A stretch of DNA of 14,122 nt from Sphingomonas sp. CCH9-E2 (GTDB taxonomy: Bacteria > Pseudomonadota > Alphaproteobacteria > Sphingomonadales > Sphingomonadaceae), in the NCBI RefSeq assembly GCF_001557215.1, contig NZ_LSJM01000352.1, forward strand, positions 1 to 14,122. Reading direction: 5' to 3'. This document shows positions 6,202-14,122 of this stretch, one piece after another. Each line of letters begins with the position of its first letter. Within the stretch, counting starts at the first letter, position 1. The translations under genes were made by a program, and so were the position numbers. The notes below the pieces were generated by a model, which worked only from the letters and a program-made list of their open reading frames with translations, had not been told where the DNA came from and searched no databases.

Positions 6202-7068
6202 TCAGCGTTCCAGTGCCGAGGCGATGTGCTGGGCGAAGCGGTGGGCGGTGAGCGTTGCGCCGGGTGCTTCGATCAGCGCGATTTCGGTGTCGTCGAGTGG
6301 CGGTAATCCGCTGTCGCGACCGAGCGGCGTCAGGGTGGGCGGGCACATTTCGCGCGGTAGCACCGCGATGCCCAGGCCCGCGCGCACCGCCGCCTGCGTC
6401 CCGGTCAGGCTGGTCGAGGTATAGGCGCAGCGCCACGCCCTCCGCGCCCGATCGAGCGCGGTCACCGCGCGCTTGCGATAGACACAGGGCTGGGGAGAAA
6501 CGATCAACGGCAAGGGGCCATCCTCCGGGATCGATCCCGCGTCGCGTGCCACCCACACCAGCGGCTCGCGCCACACGCGGATGCCGTCGATCGCGACGCC
6601 GGGGTCGCGCTTCAGCAGCACCAGGTCGAACGCACCCGCGCTGAAACCGCGCTGAAGGTTGAGCGTCAGGTCGCAGGTTACTTCGAGTTCCACGCGCGGA
6701 TGCGCTTGCGTGAAGGCCGCGAGCACATCGGGCAGGTGCGCGGTGGCAAAGTCTTCCGGAACACCCAGCCGCACCAGCCCTGCGACATCCGGCTCGGTCA
6801 GTTCGGCCATCGCGGCGTCGTTGAGCCGCAGCATGTGGCGGGCATGCGCAAGCAGTCGTTCCCCCTCCACGGTCAGTGCCACGCGCCGCGCGCCGCGCAC
6901 GAACACGGGGCGGCCCAGCTGATCCTCCAGCCGCCTGATCTGCAGGCTGACGGCCGACTGGGTCCGCCCGACGAGTGGCGCGGCGCGGGTAAAGCTGCCG
7001 GTATCGGCCACCGCGACAAAACTGCGCAGCAAATCAAGGTCAAGCGAACGGTTTGGCATGCGTGTCAT
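6202..7068 (-). CDS. LysR-type transcriptional regulator, divergent from the dab operon
   Basis: A 288-residue regulator. The N-terminal winged helix-turn-helix is clear: LDLLRSFVAVADTGSFTRAA, then GRTQSAVSLQIRRLEDQLG and GARRVALTVEGERLL (about residues 9-68). The C-terminal effector domain (from about residue 93) contains LVRLGVPEDFATAHLPDVL, the usual LysR substrate-binding opening, and GLGIAVLPREM near the end. Full length for the family. Its start lies 87 bases from dabB on the opposite strand, the classic LysR arrangement, so it probably controls dabB-dabA-PII and itself. The small-molecule effector is unknown; CbbR regulators of carbon fixation are one analogy. ATG 7068 is used, but no Shine-Dalgarno precedes it or the in-frame ATG at 7059, so the start is uncertain by three codons and the message may be leaderless. 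Confidence 0.9.
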   Translation of the reverse strand: MTRMPNRSLDLDLLRSFVAVADTGSFTRAAPLVGRTQSAVSLQIRRLEDQLGRPVFVRGARRVALTVEGERLLAHARHMLRLNDAAMAELTEPDVAGLVRLGVPEDFATAHLPDVLAAFTQAHPRVELEVTCDLTLNLQRGFSAGAFDLVLLKRDPGVAIDGIRVWREPLVWVARDAGSIPEDGPLPLIVSPQPCVYRKRAVTALDRARRAWRCAYTSTSLTGTQAAVRAGLGIAVLPREMCPPTLTPLGRDSGLPPLDDTEIALIEAPGATLTAHRFAQHIASALER

Positions 7069-7155
7069 TTGAAAAGCTCATGGATAATATGTCAATTACT
7101 CGTTTTACTCATTGATCGCCATTCGCCAGAGGGCCCCCGCAAAGGAGCCCGCCGA
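7069..7155. promoter_or_regulatory. Divergent lysR/dabB promoter region with TCAAT-N14-ATTGA dyad
   Basis: The 87-base gap is markedly AT-richer than the genes around it. It contains an inverted repeat TCAAT (7092-7096) / ATTGA (7111-7115) enclosing a direct repeat of TTACTC (7096-7101 and 7105-7110). The spacing is longer than the canonical LysR T-N11-A box. On the minus strand TTGACA (7095-7090) followed after 17 bases by TCAAAT is a possible lysR promoter; it would put the transcription start at or just after the first ATG. dabB has a clear Shine-Dalgarno AAGGAG at 7142-7147. Confidence 0.45.
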
Positions 7156-8517
7156 ATGAACGCTACACTTTCCGTCGTCCCGCTAGCGCTGCTCGCCGCG
7201 ATGCTGTGCGCGTGCATGCCGCAGGTTCGGGCGATCGCCATGGCTGCGCGTCTCGCCTGGGCCTTGTTTGGGGCCGCCGTCGCGCTGACCCTGGCCGCTG
7301 CCACGGGCTGGACACAGGCGGACCCACTCGCGCTGATCGCCATGCTGCTAACCGGATTTGTCGGCGCAATCGTGCTGTCCTTCGCACGCCGCTACCTGCG
7401 CGCCGATGCCGATCCCAAGCGGTTTGCAGTTGCCGCATTGTTGCTGGTGGCTGCCGTGATGCTGTTCGTGGTCGCGGATGCATTGTGGCTGATCGCGTTG
7501 GGCTGGATCGCGTCCGGCTGGCTGATGGCGGCGCTGGTGGGGCATGTCGCGACCTGGACGGAGGCGCGGGCGGCACGGCGGCGGATGATCGCGACGTTCA
7601 TCGTCGGCGATGTCGCACTGGTGGGAGCCTTTGCCATCCTTGCCGCCGAGACCGGCAGCCTTTCGACCAGCGCGCTCGGTACGATCACAGACACGCCGGC
7701 GACGCTCGCGGCGCTGCTGCTGGTGCTGGCCGCTGCGGTGCGCTGCGCCCTGTTTCCCTTCCATCGCTGGCTGGCGCGGTCGATGACGGCACCGACCCCG
7801 GCGTCGGCGCTGATGCATGCCGGCTTCGTCAATGCCGGCGGCCTGTTGCTGATCCGCTTCGCCCCGGTGCTGGAGGCAGCGCCGGCGGCGCGTGCACTGG
7901 TGATCGGCATGGGCATCGTCGCCGCGCTGATCGGCAGCGCGATGATGCTGGTGCGCCCCGATGTGAAGCGCGCGCTGGCCGGATCGACCAGCGCGCAAAT
8001 GGGGTTCATGCTGATGACCTGCGGCCTGGGCGCCTATGCCGCCGCGCTGTGGCACATCGTCGCACACGGGTTGTTCAAGGCGTGGTTGTTCCTGCGCTCG
8101 GGATCGGCGATCGGGATTTCAGAACAGGCGGTGCCGATGCGGCTCGCCCCGGCCGCTGTGGCCGCGATCGGTGCGCTGGCAATCGCTGCCACGTCGGTGC
8201 TGGGCCAGCTGGCCGGTGCGATGCCTAGCGCGGTGCCGCTGATCCTGGCTGCGGCGATGGCGCTGGCCACGCTGATCCATCTTCGCCGCCATGCAGTTCT
8301 GTCGCTGATCGCAGCCGTGCTTGCGGCGACCTACGCCGCCGGGCTGCAGCTGTTCGCGCAGGTTCTGGCTGACCCGGACGGGCCCGCGCTGGGCGGACCG
8401 CTGCTGCCGGTCGCGATCGTTGCGGTCTTCATGACCGCCTGGCTGGTCCAGACGCTGATCCTCGACCGGCGCATGCCGATCCCCGCCGCGCTCTATGCGC
8501 GCCTCCTCAACGCCTGA
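7156..8517 (+). CDS. dabB: DabB-like proton-channel subunit of the DAB inorganic-carbon pump (NuoL/MrpA family)
   Basis: A 453-residue polytopic inner-membrane protein of the complex I antiporter-like family (PF00361). It would couple the proton gradient to bicarbonate production by its partner DabA. The core is visible: FPFHRWLARSM (200-210), APTPASALMHAG with H221, NAGGLLLIRFAP typical of DabB, KRALAGSTSAQMGF with K271, and a helix with H300, H304 and K308 (WHIVAHGLFKAWLF). The NuoL helix-5 glutamate position aligns with I118 (LGWIASG) and the NuoL K229 position with R196. The protein is short for the family. ATG 7156 has AAGGAG 8 bases upstream; the frame is open further upstream but without family similarity. 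The stop is 14 bases before dabA, so the two are co-transcribed. MpsA is the equivalent name in Staphylococcus. Identity rests mainly on pairing with DabA. Confidence 0.88.
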   Translation: MNATLSVVPLALLAAMLCACMPQVRAIAMAARLAWALFGAAVALTLAAATGWTQADPLALIAMLLTGFVGAIVLSFARRYLRADADPKRFAVAALLLVAAVMLFVVADALWLIALGWIASGWLMAALVGHVATWTEARAARRRMIATFIVGDVALVGAFAILAAETGSLSTSALGTITDTPATLAALLLVLAAAVRCALFPFHRWLARSMTAPTPASALMHAGFVNAGGLLLIRFAPVLEAAPAARALVIGMGIVAALIGSAMMLVRPDVKRALAGSTSAQMGFMLMTCGLGAYAAALWHIVAHGLFKAWLFLRSGSAIGISEQAVPMRLAPAAVAAIGALAIAATSVLGQLAGAMPSAVPLILAAAMALATLIHLRRHAVLSLIAAVLAATYAAGLQLFAQVLADPDGPALGGPLLPVAIVAVFMTAWLVQTLILDRRMPIPAALYARLLNA

Positions 8518-8531
8518 TCGAAAGGCCGACC

Positions 8532-11009
8532 ATGAACGTCATGACCCGTACCCATGCGGACCTCGCCCCGCGCCGGATCGATCAGGCGCGGCTGCGCGTC
8601 GCGATCGATCTCGCCAGCCTGAGCGTTGCGCCGCTCTGGCCGCTCGACGGCGCGATCGCGGTCAACCCGCTGACGGGGTTCGAGGACCTTCCCTTTGACG
8701 AAGCGATCCGCGTCGCATCGACCCGGTTCGGTGCGCGGACCGGCCTGCCGCTGGCGCTGTGGCGGCGGCTGAGCGCGACGGGTCGGCCCGGGCGGGCGGC
8801 GGTCCGCGATGGCGCGATTGCGGCGCTCGGCGGCATCAACGAGGCCTTTCGTCTGCTCGGCCCGAATGTGTCGCGGCTCGACTGCCTGATGGCGCGACTG
8901 TTCGATCTCCCCGAGGCTGAGGAGGTGCTCGCATCGGCGGATCCGGGGGCGGTCGCGGTCGCCGATCTGTGCGCGACGTGCTTCGATCCCGGCCCGGCGG
9001 GTCTCGTGCTGCCACGGCGCGACGGGGGCTTGTTTGCCGCAACGCGCGACGTGCTGGCCCACATGCCGGGGTTTGCACCGTCGCGCATGCCCCATGACCT
9101 GCCCGACAAGCCGCTCGCCGCGATTGCCGCGATGCTCGACCGGCGCGGCGTCGGCGATGCGGCGCTGGACGAATATCTCGGCTGCACCGTCGCCCGCTTG
9201 CCCGGCTGGGCGGGCCATATCCGCTGGCGCATCGACCATGCCGACCCGGACCGCGTCGCCGATGCGCCGGCGACCATGGCCGACCTGATCGCGCTGCTGA
9301 TGCTCGCCGACCATCTTGTCGATCCGCCGCGAATGGTGGAGCGGGCGGCCGACCCGGCCGGCACGCGCGTGGCGCTGGCGCAGCATTTCGGCCTGCCCGA
9401 CCCGGCGCTGGGCGGAGTTGCCGAACAGGTCGTGGCCATGAGCGTCACCGATCTGGCGCTGATCTTTCAGCAGGCGGCGGAGGCGGAGTATCGCGATACG
9501 CTGGTCCGCGACCTGCGCCGCACGGGGCCCCAGCCGGTGCGCCGTCCGGCGGAGGCGACGCTGGTCTTCTGTATCGATGTCCGCTCCGAACCGATGCGTC
9601 GGGCGATCGAGGCCGTCGGGCCGTGGGACACGGCGGGCTATGCCGGCTTTTTCGGGCTGCCGATCGCGATCCATGCCGACGGGATGCATCGCCAGCGCCA
9701 GCTGCCGGTACTGGTCGGTCCGCAGCATGACCTGGTCATGCGCCCCGCCCCGGGGGAAGAGGCAGCGGCGGAGCGCGCCGTGCAGGCACAGCGGCGCGCG
9801 CGCTGGGGCAGCGCGATGTTCGGTTGGCTCAAGGGCGGTAGCGCCACTGCCTATGCCACCGCCGAAGTGACCGGCCCGCTCGCCGGGTTCGCCATGCTCG
9901 CACAAACCCTGTTCCCCGGCGCGATGCGACGCTGGCAGGAGGCATGGCGCGGCAGCGATACGCCATTCGCCCCCGCGATCGATGCGCATGGCGGCTGCGG
10001 CGGCCTCACGCTGAACGAACGGATCGGTTATGCCCGCGCGCTGTTCGCGCTGACCGGACTGGACCCGCAAACGCCGGTGATCGTGCTGGTCGGGCATCGA
10101 GGTGAGGCGGTCAACAATCCCTTTGCCGCGTCGCTCGACTGCGGGGCGTGTGCCGGGCATGGCGGCGCGCCCAATGCGCGCGCGCTGGCGGCGATCCTCA
10201 ACGATCCCAGAGTGCGCGCGGCGCTCGAAATGCCGCCCGATGGCGTCGCGCTCGCCGGTGAGCATAATACGACAACGGATGAGGTGACGCTGTTCGGCAC
10301 CGCCAATGTGCCGGCGCAGCATCGCGATCGGGTCGCGCGGCTGATGCGCGACCTGGAGCAGGCAGGGGCCAATGCGCGGGCGGCACGTGCGCGCAAGCTC
10401 GACCGGACGGCGGACGATCTGGTGCGCGGTGCCGCGCATTGGGGCGAGGTGCGGCCCGAATGGGGTCTGACCGGCAACGCCGCCTTCATCGTTGCGCCGC
10501 GCGATCGCACGCGTGCAGTCGATCTCGACGGGCGGGCCTTTCTGCACGATTACGACTGGCGCTGCGATCCTACGGGTGAGGCGCTCGCGACGATCCTGAC
10601 CGCGCCGATGGTCGTCGCGCAATGGATCAACTGCCAGTATCTGTTCTCAACCATCGATAACGACCGTTACGGTGCCGGGGACAAGGCGATCCACAACCCG
10701 GTCGCGCGGATCGGGGTGATGCGCGGCAATGGTGGCGACCTCGCCATCGGCCTGCCGCGCCAGTCGCTGTTCCATGACGACGGCCTGCCCGCGCATATCC
10801 CGCAGCGGCTGCTGACCATCGTCGAAGCGCCGCTCGACCGGATCGACGCGGTGATCGCCGGGCATCCGGTGCTGCAGCGGCTGTTCGGCAATGGCTGGGT
10901 CCAGCTGGTCGCGATCGATCCCGCAACGTCCGAACCGCGCCGCTGGCGCCCGAACACCGAACTGACTGGCCGGGACGCCTGGCTGTCCCGCCCCGAAACT
11001 GGAGAATGA
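8532..11009 (+). CDS. dabA: DabA, DUF2309 (PF10070) carbonic-anhydrase-like subunit
   Basis: An 825-residue cytoplasmic subunit that, with DabB, hydrates CO2 to bicarbonate in one direction. The family-defining segments are present: SVAPLWPLDGAIAVNPL near the N-terminus (about 33-49), LVFCIDVRSEPMRRA with C347 and D349, VLVGHRGEAVNNPF with H522, and LDCGACAGHGG with C537. These four residues match the zinc ligands and active-site Asp of the Halothiobacillus DabA (C351, D353, H524, C539), with the same 15-residue spacing between His and the last Cys. C-terminal segments INCQYLFSTID and HNPVARIGVMRGNGGDLAIGLPRQSL are also family-typical. Length is normal. A GAAAGG precedes the start in a 14-base gap after dabB. 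No signal peptide or membrane helix is seen. A 709-codon open frame on the opposite strand is a composition shadow. Confidence 0.95.
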   Translation: MNVMTRTHADLAPRRIDQARLRVAIDLASLSVAPLWPLDGAIAVNPLTGFEDLPFDEAIRVASTRFGARTGLPLALWRRLSATGRPGRAAVRDGAIAALGGINEAFRLLGPNVSRLDCLMARLFDLPEAEEVLASADPGAVAVADLCATCFDPGPAGLVLPRRDGGLFAATRDVLAHMPGFAPSRMPHDLPDKPLAAIAAMLDRRGVGDAALDEYLGCTVARLPGWAGHIRWRIDHADPDRVADAPATMADLIALLMLADHLVDPPRMVERAADPAGTRVALAQHFGLPDPALGGVAEQVVAMSVTDLALIFQQAAEAEYRDTLVRDLRRTGPQPVRRPAEATLVFCIDVRSEPMRRAIEAVGPWDTAGYAGFFGLPIAIHADGMHRQRQLPVLVGPQHDLVMRPAPGEEAAAERAVQAQRRARWGSAMFGWLKGGSATAYATAEVTGPLAGFAMLAQTLFPGAMRRWQEAWRGSDTPFAPAIDAHGGCGGLTLNERIGYARALFALTGLDPQTPVIVLVGHRGEAVNNPFAASLDCGACAGHGGAPNARALAAILNDPRVRAALEMPPDGVALAGEHNTTTDEVTLFGTANVPAQHRDRVARLMRDLEQAGANARAARARKLDRTADDLVRGAAHWGEVRPEWGLTGNAAFIVAPRDRTRAVDLDGRAFLHDYDWRCDPTGEALATILTAPMVVAQWINCQYLFSTIDNDRYGAGDKAIHNPVARIGVMRGNGGDLAIGLPRQSLFHDDGLPAHIPQRLLTIVEAPLDRIDAVIAGHPVLQRLFGNGWVQLVAIDPATSEPRRWRPNTELTGRDAWLSRPETGE

Positions 11010-11012
11010 TCA

Positions 11013-11351
11013 ATGACCGAACCCGATGCATTGCCCCTGCACCCGATGCGCAAGATCGAAGTGATCGTCCATGCCGCCGACCATGGCCTGGTCGAGCGCA
11101 ATCTGCGCGCGGCGGGGATCGCCGGATGGTCGATGATCCGCGACGTGGCCGGGATGGGCCATGGCGGCTTTCATCAGGGGCGGACGATCTTCAATGACGA
11201 AACCGGGCTGGTCATGTTCGTCGCGGTCGGCGACCGTCAGCGGATTCAGGACGCCGCCGCCGCGATGCGTACGCTGTTCGCCGAGCGTCCGGGCGTGCTG
11301 TTCCTGTCGGATGTGGAGGTTATTCGATCGGACTATGTCGCCGGGGCCTAG
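11013..11351 (+). CDS. PII-like regulatory protein associated with the DAB pump
   Basis: A 112-residue protein of the PII/PII-like trimeric sensor superfamily. It begins MRKIEVIVHAADHGLVERNL (after a 11-residue extension), then AGIAGWSMIRDVAGMGHGG, a short T-loop-like segment around FHQGRTIF, the LVMFVAV strand, and a C-terminal VLFLSDVEVIRSDY strand. The GlnB uridylylation tyrosine and its T-loop context are not present, and there are no cysteines, so this is not a classical nitrogen PII and lacks the redox Cys pair of some PII-like proteins. It starts 3 bases after the dabA stop, with its GGAGA Shine-Dalgarno inside the end of dabA. PII-like proteins (CPII, SbtB) accompany other bicarbonate systems and bind adenine nucleotides and/or bicarbonate, so a role in gating DabAB is inferred. 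Confidence 0.85.
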   Translation: MTEPDALPLHPMRKIEVIVHAADHGLVERNLRAAGIAGWSMIRDVAGMGHGGFHQGRTIFNDETGLVMFVAVGDRQRIQDAAAAMRTLFAERPGVLFLSDVEVIRSDYVAGA

Positions 11352-11406: not shown

Positions 11407-11444
11407 GCGCCAGCGCGCAGCCACGCGCTGGCGCTATTGATTTT
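11407..11444 (+). terminator. Intrinsic terminator of the dab operon
   Basis: GCGCCAGCGCG (11407-11417) pairs perfectly with CGCGCTGGCGC (11424-11434) around a CAGCCA loop, an 11-bp GC-rich stem. It is followed by TATTGATTTT, a broken T-rich run. It starts 55 bases after the PII-like stop. This is the best terminator in the window. Confidence 0.75.
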
Positions 11445-11494: not shown

Positions 11495-11773
11495 GTGACC
11501 GTTACGCTCGACACGATCATTCGTCGGCACCCCGATCAGATCTCCTCGGAAATGGATGGGCAGACGGTGCTGATGACGATCAGCACCGGCCTGTATTTCG
11601 GTCTCAATGCGGTGGGGAGCGACATCTGGCGCCAGCTCGACGCGCCAAAGTCGGTGGGCGATCTCGTCACCGATGTGGTAGCGCGTTATGATGTTGACGA
11701 AGCCAGCTGTCGGGCCGACATCCTGGCGCTCGTCGAGCAACTCGTCGAGCATCAGCTAGTGCAAGTCGGTTGA
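11495..11773 (+). CDS. PqqD-family peptide-recognition protein (lasso B1/RRE type)
   Basis: A 92-residue protein matching the PqqD fold (PF05402), the RiPP recognition element that binds a precursor's leader peptide and delivers it to the modifying enzymes. Diagnostic is the central GLYFGLNAVGSDIWRQL (32-48), then a KSVGDLVTDVVARYDVDEASC helix pair and a C-terminal VEQLVEHQLVQ. The GTG start at 11495 is well supported by GGAGG at 11483-11487 with a 7-base spacer. It is free-standing, as in split lasso B1/B2 systems, not fused to a leader protease. It begins a tight run with the SGNH hydrolase (17-base gap) and an asparagine-synthetase-like gene, suggesting one transcript. No PQQ genes are in view, so it is not expected to be true PqqD. 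A role as chaperone in a different modification pathway cannot be excluded. Confidence 0.88.
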   Translation: MTVTLDTIIRRHPDQISSEMDGQTVLMTISTGLYFGLNAVGSDIWRQLDAPKSVGDLVTDVVARYDVDEASCRADILALVEQLVEHQLVQVG

Positions 11774-11790
11774 GCTGTCGGTAGCGGCGC

Positions 11791-12924
11791 GTGGAGGAGG
11801 CGGCAGACGTTAGCGACCATGCCGCCCGGGCGGTGCGCGGACTGCACCGCGCGCGATCCTTGTTGATGGTCGTCGGTGCCACCTACGCGGCGTTGCTGAT
11901 GAGCGAGACGTTCCTGTGGGCGACCAGCTTTCCGCGCCTGCGCCCGGAGTTCCAGCGCAACCTCTACAAGCCCGATCAGACGCTCGGCATCGTGCTCAAC
12001 CCCGGCTATTCCGCGCGCTTCGATGATGGCTATGCGCAGTGGACCGTGAAAGTGAACGCGCTTGGTCAGCGCGACGACCCGCCCCGGCAGAGCCAGCGCA
12101 CACGCGTGCTGCTGGTCGGCGATTCGTTCGCATATGGGGAACTCGTCGATCAGCGCGACCGCATCGACCGGCAGGTTGAGCATCGGCGGCGTGACCTCGA
12201 CGTCTATAATCTGGGGGTCAGCGGTTATAACTTCCCCGATCTGCTGATGGCGCTTCACCGCAGTCCGGTGACGGCATGCCATGTCGTCTATCTCTTTTAC
12301 CCCAACGATCTCGATCCACCATTGTCACAAACGGTGGTGGACGGGTTTCGCGTCTTCAGACGCACCTTGCCCAACGGACAACCGGAACCGTTGAGCACCG
12401 TCCGCCGCACCATCGCCAGGCAGGTTGAAGAAGCGCGCAAGGCCGATGCGCGACATGCGCGCTGGTGGGTTCCGCCGTTGCGCACGCTGTCATTGCCTCG
12501 CCTGCGTCAATTGGTCGCGGCGACCGCCCGGACGATCGGGCTGGCGGAGCCTCGCAACGCTGCAAATGGGCTATATGGCGAGAATGCCCCACCGGCGGCG
12601 GTGCAGCGCGCAGTCGCGTTCACCGATCGCATGGCGCGCCATGCAAAGGGCAAGGGGATGACCTTTCAGCAGTTCATCATACCAACGCTGGACGAGGTGC
12701 GGCGCCGTGCCCATGGTCCGGCCACCAATGCCTATATCGCGGAACTGAAGCGGGCCGGTATCGCGCCGGTCGATCTGCTGCCCGCGCTCCGCCGGGACCA
12801 TTACTGGGCGCATGATGGGCATTTCAATGCGGCGGGCGCGGCGGTAGCAGCGGATGCCATTGCGGCTGCGGTAACGCAGATGCCGGCTGGCCCGCCATGC
12901 GGGCTGCACCGCGCGCCTTCCTGA
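11791..12924 (+). CDS. Membrane-anchored SGNH/GDSL-type hydrolase or acyltransferase
   Basis: A 377-residue protein with one N-terminal hydrophobic segment (about 24-43, SLLMVVGATYAALLM) that looks like a signal anchor, placing the catalytic domain in the periplasm. SGNH blocks are in order: LLVGDSFAYGE with nucleophile S112, GVSGYNFPD with G145, FYPND with N172, and HDGHFNAAG with D342 and H344. The VNALGQRDDP strand before block I is typical of bacterial SGNH proteins linked to exopolysaccharide or cell-envelope acylation. GTG 11791 is the furthest in-frame start and gives a complete N-terminus, but its ribosome site is weak; ATG 11866 lies inside the hydrophobic segment. Placed between a PqqD-like protein and an asparagine-synthetase-like gene, it may act on the peptide product or its membrane export. 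Substrate unknown; esterase, deacetylase and O-acyltransferase activities are all possible. Confidence 0.82.
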   Translation: MEEAADVSDHAARAVRGLHRARSLLMVVGATYAALLMSETFLWATSFPRLRPEFQRNLYKPDQTLGIVLNPGYSARFDDGYAQWTVKVNALGQRDDPPRQSQRTRVLLVGDSFAYGELVDQRDRIDRQVEHRRRDLDVYNLGVSGYNFPDLLMALHRSPVTACHVVYLFYPNDLDPPLSQTVVDGFRVFRRTLPNGQPEPLSTVRRTIARQVEEARKADARHARWWVPPLRTLSLPRLRQLVAATARTIGLAEPRNAANGLYGENAPPAAVQRAVAFTDRMARHAKGKGMTFQQFIIPTLDEVRRRAHGPATNAYIAELKRAGIAPVDLLPALRRDHYWAHDGHFNAAGAAVAADAIAAAVTQMPAGPPCGLHRAPS

Positions 12925-12939
12925 TCGAGGATCGACACC

Positions 12940-14122
12940 ATGTCCGGTTTCGCCGCTCTTGTGATGCGCCATCGCGATGACCAGGCGTCTGAACAGGGCG
13001 TCGCGATGCTCGACATCCTGCATGCGCGCGGTCCCAACTGGCGCCAGAGCGTCACGCTCGACCGCGTCACCTTGTGCCAGACCGGCGACCATCGCGCGCA
13101 TGCCGATCTGACCAGCGGTCATGGTCCGCGCGCGGCGATCCGCTGCATCGGCGATATCCGGATCGATGATCGGGTTGCCTTTCTTAATGGGCTGGCAATG
13201 GCCGGGCGCGTGATCGATCCGCAGCTTCCTGACACCACGCTCATCGCGCATGCCTATGACCTGTGGCAGGAGCGGTTGCTCGATTATCTGATCGGGGATT
13301 TCAGCTTCGTAGTCTGGGACGAAGCGCGACAGCAGCTGTTCGCGGCGCGCGATCCGTTCGGCGTGGCACAGCTGTTCGTGGCGGAATCCGCGAACGGCAC
13401 TGTGCTGACCAACACGCTGGACGCCGCGCTGCAGCTCGACGGATTGGATCAAAGCCTCGACGACACGGCGCTCCAGGACTGTGCATTGTTCGGCTATTTC
13501 CTCGATCCGGCCATGACGCCGTACCGGTCGATCCGACGCATCGCGCCCGGTCACGCTGTGCTGCTGCGCGATGGCATGCGTCACGATCGGCGCTATTGGC
13601 TGCCCGCCGCCCTGCCGCCAGTGTCCAGCGAGCGCGATCATCTTGCGCTGGCCGACGGGTTCCGTACGCTATTCGACGCGGCGGTTGCCGACCGGGTGCG
13701 CGATATCGATGCTGCCGGGATCCAGCTGAGCGGCGGAATGGATTCGACCAGCATTGCCGCGACCATCACCACGCTGGCCGCACGGGATAAGCCGCAGTTC
13801 GCGCTCCGTGCCTATACCATGCACAATGAAACGCTTTACGACGATCAGGAGTTCGTGCTGGCACGGCTGGTCGCGGATCACCTCGGTATCGCGATCGAGG
13901 GGCTGGGGCCGGAGGTTGGGGCGCAGTTTGCTAACGGGGGGGCACCCGCCGTGCCGTCGGAACCAGGCCCTGCGGACGCCCCGGGCTGGCACGATGTCAA
14001 CAAGCGGACCGTAGCATTCGCGCCGCTGTTGTTCATGGGTTTCGGCGGCGACGCGCTGTTCGAGTGGGGAACGCCCTCCTTGCAAAGCGCCGGGCGCTGG
14101 TTCCGCCGCCGCGAGTGGCGGG
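12940..14122 (+). CDS. Asparagine-synthetase-like enzyme, possible lasso cyclase (partial, runs off the window)
   Basis: Open from ATG 12940 (GAGG at 12927-12930) through the last base, 394 codons seen, 3' end missing. An N-terminal class-II amidotransferase-like domain (about 1-200) is followed by an ATP-pyrophosphatase domain. The ATP loop is QLSGGMDSTS with S264-GGMD-S269, and the later GFGGDALF (367-374) matches the AsnB GGDE region. The glutaminase appears dead: the MCGI start of AsnB is MSGF here (Cys2 replaced by Ser), and the usual NGE glutamine-binding motif reads IGD. Such enzymes adenylate a carboxylate without releasing ammonia from glutamine; in lasso-peptide clusters they activate an Asp/Glu side chain to close the macrolactam ring. 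With PqqD two genes upstream this is the favoured reading. An exopolysaccharide-associated asparagine-synthetase-like role is the alternative. Confidence 0.88.
   Translation, partial: MSGFAALVMRHRDDQASEQGVAMLDILHARGPNWRQSVTLDRVTLCQTGDHRAHADLTSGHGPRAAIRCIGDIRIDDRVAFLNGLAMAGRVIDPQLPDTTLIAHAYDLWQERLLDYLIGDFSFVVWDEARQQLFAARDPFGVAQLFVAESANGTVLTNTLDAALQLDGLDQSLDDTALQDCALFGYFLDPAMTPYRSIRRIAPGHAVLLRDGMRHDRRYWLPAALPPVSSERDHLALADGFRTLFDAAVADRVRDIDAAGIQLSGGMDSTSIAATITTLAARDKPQFALRAYTMHNETLYDDQEFVLARLVADHLGIAIEGLGPEVGAQFANGGAPAVPSEPGPADAPGWHDVNKRTVAFAPLLFMGFGGDALFEWGTPSLQSAGRWFRRREWR

Follow-up and report, generated by a model that had tools for sequence, protein, structure and literature searches.

An SGNH hydrolase gene between probable lasso-type recognition protein and macrolactam synthetase genes at a contig end of Sphingomonas sp. 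CCH9-E2

Introduction

The closest described systems are lasso peptide gene clusters with split B1 and B2 proteins and additional tailoring genes, such as the BsfA type (PMC10368454 and the review PMC8498205). Here we analyse contig NZ_LSJM01000352.1 of Sphingomonas sp. CCH9-E2, a stretch of 14,122 bases (the window), at the right end of which a PqqD-like gene, an SGNH hydrolase gene and an asparagine-synthetase-like gene follow one another. Like the BsfA-type clusters, the window has a separate PqqD-like B1 protein and an asparagine-synthetase-like C protein that lacks Cys2, and its related clusters carry B2, HPr-kinase-like, nucleotidyltransferase or ABC genes. It differs from them in the SGNH gene lying between B1 and C, and in that B2, precursor and transporter are not in view.

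Known lasso tailoring enzymes mostly act on the precursor. According to PMC8498205, there would be use for enzymes that can tailor lasso peptides after folding. A periplasmic SGNH protein tied to the pathway might be such an enzyme, adding or removing acyl groups late and on the export side. Should it be a bystander, the locus would represent one further lasso-type cluster of a sphingomonad-like bacterium. A lasso-type cluster is of an already known kind, and the uncommon SGNH gene between B1 and C makes this one a modest variation.

Other systems resemble single genes of the locus. CgnD, the SGNH leader protease of the crocagin pathway for a ribosomally synthesized and post-translationally modified peptide (RiPP), also sits in a RiPP cluster and has an SGNH fold and an N-terminal extension in common with the window protein, but the latter has a probable membrane anchor. 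Periplasmic SGNH acetyltransferases of the AlgJ/AlgX/PatB types share the anchored SGNH domain, and the C-terminal DxH part of the window protein matches AlgX/AlgJ; they differ in that no acyl-donor membrane protein is in view in the window. The block order of AlgX also differs from that of the window protein, in which the Ser block leads and DxH stands at the end. Finally, the XrtA/PEP-CTERM amidotransferase TIGR03108 is asparagine-synthetase-like, as is the window synthetase, but the latter has no Cys2 and falls among lasso cyclases.

Results

A lasso-type gene pair

Three open reading frames (ORFs) on the plus strand close the window, and both the ORF calls and Pfam placed them where the initial annotation had described them. 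The PqqD-like gene (11495..11773) encodes 92 aa from a GTG start preceded by GGAGG. The SGNH gene (11791..12924) encodes at most 377 aa from the GTG at 11791, and 352 aa in the database form from the ATG at 11866; its start codon is uncertain. Of the synthetase gene (12940..14121), 394 codons are present and the frame is open at the contig end. The intergenic gaps measure 17 and 15 bases with the GTG start and 92 and 15 bases with the ATG start, and base composition is alike across the three genes. We infer that the run is probably one transcription unit.

Among NCBIfam models, NF033535 (lass_lactam_cya) matched the synthetase best, with 150.3 bits over the part present in the cut gene, which is below the full-length cut-off of 525. 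The XrtA amidotransferase model reached 94.4 bits, and Pfam reported GATase_7 (51.7 bits) and Asn_synthase (39.8 bits). Residue 2 is Ser and the loop reads SGGMDS, so the protein has the features of a lasso cyclase devoid of the glutaminase Cys and lacks the Cys2 nucleophile of XrtA/PEP-CTERM amidotransferases. We compared residue 2, based on ORF-called starts, among 55 rows of synthetases that have a B2 gene within 7 kb, 20 rows that have PqqD but no B2 match in this range, and 9 rows that have neither. Eight 'neither' rows had Cys and the remaining one a gap, against Cys in 0 of the 55 B2-linked and 0 of the 20 PqqD-linked rows.

A tree was built from these rows, 25 of 46 database relatives (P0016-P0040) and the window; synthetase ORFs below 450 aa were dropped, and three pairs (L163/L165, L140/L164, L173/L187) are duplicates of one gene each. 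The window synthetase falls inside an 18-row set with a support of 100 (SH-aLRT, a likelihood-ratio branch test), together with five B2-linked rows (four distinct loci), two PqqD-linked rows, ten rows of unknown context and no 'neither' row. Eight of the nine 'neither' rows form part of another set (support 99); the remaining row, L187, is a truncated copy of a gene that is PqqD-linked. Since the end branch of the window is long (1.25), its position within the 18-row set is unsure. As a separate observation, L117, L128, L138, L143, L144, L147 and L151 combine PqqD and a non-Cys2 synthetase, with no B2 match within 7 kb. In PqqD-only loci the B2 gene may lie elsewhere in the genome or have diverged beyond the reach of our profiles.

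Of the best 22 synthetase places, we read the surroundings of 20 (of the other two, L140 was already covered and G432 was skipped). A PqqD match lay within 20 kb in 13 of the 20, ten of which also had B2, and seven had neither. The top place, in genome G737 (L165), comprises PqqD, 2-oxoglutarate oxygenase, B2, cyclase, precursor, HPr-kinase-like (scoring below Pfam's cut-off) and sulfatase genes. Within the 18-row set, L146, L150 and L170 have B2 and candidate precursors. The candidates adjoin a cyclase, PqqD or kinase gene and show the leader motif Y-x-x-P/A-x-L/I/F; they lie at 9284-9511 and 9668-9895 (both minus strand) in L150, 9640-9852 (minus) in L146, 11078-11251 (plus) in L165, 11595-11801 (plus) in L170 and 10727-10879 (plus) in L167. 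Among six candidates scanned with the lasso leader model NF033521 (cut-off 19), those of L146 (25.2 bits) and L170 (24.0 bits) passed. The L165 candidate had a sub-threshold match to a lasso precursor model; the candidates of L167, L140 and one of the two in L150 had no match among the lasso models scanned. Hand-counting with the published Tyr(-17) spacing, we noted that Thr or Asn would be the first core residue and that Asp/Glu at positions 7-9 is missing in 5 of 6 candidates; the ring may thus be unusual, or the cut site may differ.

The PqqD-like protein matched PF05402 (69.8 bits) and scored 80.1 bits with the lasso B1 model NF033536 (lasso_PqqD_Bac), against a cut-off of 80. In a protein search for relatives the window's own protein was the sole find (4 candidates scored). 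Two contigs are listed in the database for this protein, and likewise two for the SGNH cluster, so that a second contig exists. A sample of 385 genomes from the class that includes Leisingera contained 22 with NF033536-like PqqD genes (E 1e-12 or better), above the cut-off in 3, and 20 of the 22 encoded a B2-type protease somewhere in the genome. Further observations on PqqD genes are their position near small MdpB/tail-collar-like proteins in L123, L126, L128 and L140, as read from ORF starts, and the ten PqqD matches of genome G106.

The outer genes are likely a lasso-type B1 and C pair. The reading of the initial annotation, a PqqD protein paired with a glutaminase-dead synthetase, was supported by the family models, the residue-2 column with Ser in the window, the tree, and the related clusters with B2 and lasso-leader precursors. 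In such a pathway, the PqqD-like B1 would bind the precursor leader, and the Ser2 synthetase would activate an Asp/Glu side chain with ATP and close the macrolactam ring. The B2 protease, precursor and exporter would be expected to the right of 14122.

The SGNH protein

The protein contains all blocks of the SGNH superfamily, with the first codon bases of the catalytic residues at 12124 (Ser), 12214 (Gly), 12304 (Asn), 12814 (Asp) and 12820 (His). Ser, Gly, Asn and His were present in 12/12 rows of the alignment and Asp in 8/12. In the close relatives P0005, P0006 and P0008, Asn replaces the Asp of Asp-x-His, and catalysis is perhaps altered there. Pfam matched ALGX/SGNH (PF16822, 34.6 bits). 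Hydropathy revealed a single hydrophobic stretch (residues 24-42) preceded by arginines, which suggests that the protein has probably one membrane anchor and that its catalytic domain would face the periplasm. One N-terminal helix would then hold the protein. Its most likely role is that of an accessory esterase or acyltransferase, outside the core steps, whose substrate would be the exported peptide or the cell surface.

A structure model (mean predicted local distance difference test score 75.5) matched SGNH proteins, with CgnD (PDB 8a2n) on top. On the sequence level, similarity to CgnD is only remote: it was matched with E 0.0042 by a 19-row profile, while a 9-row profile gave no match at E 1. 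However, an SGNH protein used as control, encoded next to a Cys2 synthetase outside a lasso cluster, matched CgnD more closely than the window protein did. The match therefore says nothing on the role of the window protein, and we rejected a CgnD-like leader protease identity since the structural match is not specific.

Among 7997 candidates scored in the protein database, there were 8 close relatives (30-45% identity) besides the protein's own cluster and three remote ones. We took the best 80 loci of genome-borne relatives. Six headed this list, L001-L006, at 30-34% identity and with the labels Phycisphaerales, Eisenbacteria, Myxococcota and Deltaproteobacteria. L001 has glycosyltransferase and methyltransferase genes around it, and L006 has an Acyl_transf_3 gene as its neighbour. 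A synthetase match was present at the remoter loci L012 and L016. In L019 of Leisingera (7713-10843) we observed a Cys2 synthetase gene overlapping the start of an SGNH gene, amid glycosyltransferase-like genes.

SGNH genes near other lasso loci

The initial annotation regarded the SGNH gene as a non-standard component. In agreement, 47 PqqD places from 22 alphaproteobacterial genomes had no GDSL/SGNH match closer than 17 kb, and no lasso cluster with an SGNH gene was mentioned in the titles and abstract openings listed by searches of open-licence papers. Two other lasso clusters nevertheless have SGNH genes. One, L177, is the only one of the 20 synthetase places with a GDSL/SGNH match within 20 kb; the gene lies 67 bases ahead of B2, with a carbamoyltransferase and an SxtJ gene on the other side. 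The second case came from 80 B2 loci, drawn from the upper part of the B2 matches listed and scanned with a 56-sequence SGNH profile. By the profiles used, 34 of these loci combined B2 with a PqqD match and 39 showed B2 only, so they may not all be lasso clusters. An SGNH match lay within about 10 kb in 5 of the 80. Three (L245, L247, L258) were set aside, as their ORFs read like housekeeping tesA beside an ABC-permease pair. The other two are one homologous case: in L252 the SGNH gene lies 134 bases ahead of a nucleotidyltransferase-ABC pair, and L243 is homologous. Thus, SGNH genes occur in lasso clusters, but enrichment is not supported. The SGNH proteins of L177 and L243/L252 have only remote likeness to that of the window.

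Weighing the explanations

We propose that the three genes form the left part of a lasso-type RiPP cluster with a possible accessory SGNH enzyme in the periplasm. As a whole we consider this evenly balanced; that the SGNH protein functionally belongs to the pathway is tentative, a little short of even. Several results weigh against the proposal. The exact trio of PqqD, SGNH and synthetase had no second instance among the loci and genomes searched; the initial annotation had named failure to co-occur as refuting its reading, and for this exact SGNH family this is so far what we found. The flanks of L001-L006, short for L002 and L005, held no PqqD or synthetase match. Among 396 genomes of the order of genome G024 (taken as Sphingomonadales, from DNA similarity only), there were just 7 weak partial matches to the SGNH family (E 1e-6, no more than 4 candidates per genome scored), which do not include the SGNH gene of L177. 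That gene itself scored 30.0 against a Pfam cut-off of 32.9. With about 0.7 to 1.3 SGNH genes expected by chance in 80 loci, a rough figure with the density taken from PF13472, SGNH genes near B2 loci are not clearly above chance once tesA is removed and L243/L252 counted once. The PqqD-like protein barely cleared its cut-off, and two members of the 18-row set, L151 and L167, lack B2 within 7 kb despite having PqqD. In line with the initial annotation, the 14122 bases contain no match to the B2 profile and no convincing precursor, nor is a transporter or isopeptidase in view. Four small ORFs with a loose leader motif, three far upstream on the minus strand and one (12062-12244, plus) that lies within the SGNH gene in a different frame and has the motif close to the ORF end, were all taken as chance.

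The B1 and C pair may be real and the SGNH protein a bystander, a surface-polysaccharide esterase or acetyltransferase with no effect on the peptide. We regard this as plausible, if on the doubtful side: the settings of L001 and L006, the remote relatives near synthetase genes (outside a lasso setting in L019, with a synthetase match in L012 and L016) and the near-chance frequency at lasso loci favour it, whereas the tight same-strand position between two pathway genes and the presence of an SGNH gene in or next to two further lasso clusters do not. That the locus is instead an XrtA/exosortase-type polysaccharide cluster, its synthetase an exopolysaccharide amidotransferase and its PqqD-like gene a coincidental neighbour, is improbable. 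L019, which reads as a polysaccharide cluster, does have a synthetase next to an SGNH gene, and the XrtA model matched the window synthetase; but the latter has Ser2, scored higher with the lasso cyclase model and is apart from the Cys2 group in the tree, and the PqqD-like protein clears the lasso cut-off. By analogy with CgnD, the SGNH protein might take the place of B2 as leader protease, which we consider very improbable. Slighter still is the chance of a B2-less lasso-type pathway in which the anchored hydrolase would remove the leader at the membrane; if true, this would couple maturation to export.

Neighbouring genes and further searches

A terminator-like hairpin found by consensus scan (11407..11434, plus strand; 11 pairs, 10 of them G-C, then TATTGATTTT) separates the run from upstream DabA and PII-like genes. 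The scanned region held 6 terminator-like sites versus 1.5 expected in shuffles, so the hairpin is weak evidence by itself. Further upstream genes, with no core lasso gene among them, encode PII-like, DabA, DabB-like, LysR, GH13, GT4 and TonB-receptor proteins. A Sphingomonas parapaucimobilis plasmid shares 71% identity with the GH13-GT4 stretch, and genome G024 shares 72%, which points to a probable sphingomonad host. The window synthetase was matched in 288 of the 396 genomes of this order (E 1e-12 or better), as expected of any such enzyme.

Viral contigs yielded no matches, and PADLOC reported nothing for the PqqD-like, SGNH or synthetase proteins. In the plasmid collection the SGNH protein had no match, and the synthetase matched 134 records, all below 60% identity. 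The stretch 6202-11351 comprises a LysR gene (minus strand) and genes of the DabB-like, DabA and PII-like types. As called, the DabB-like ORF (6700) overlaps with the LysR gene, and the domain match of this ORF begins at residue 206, so that its true start is probably later.
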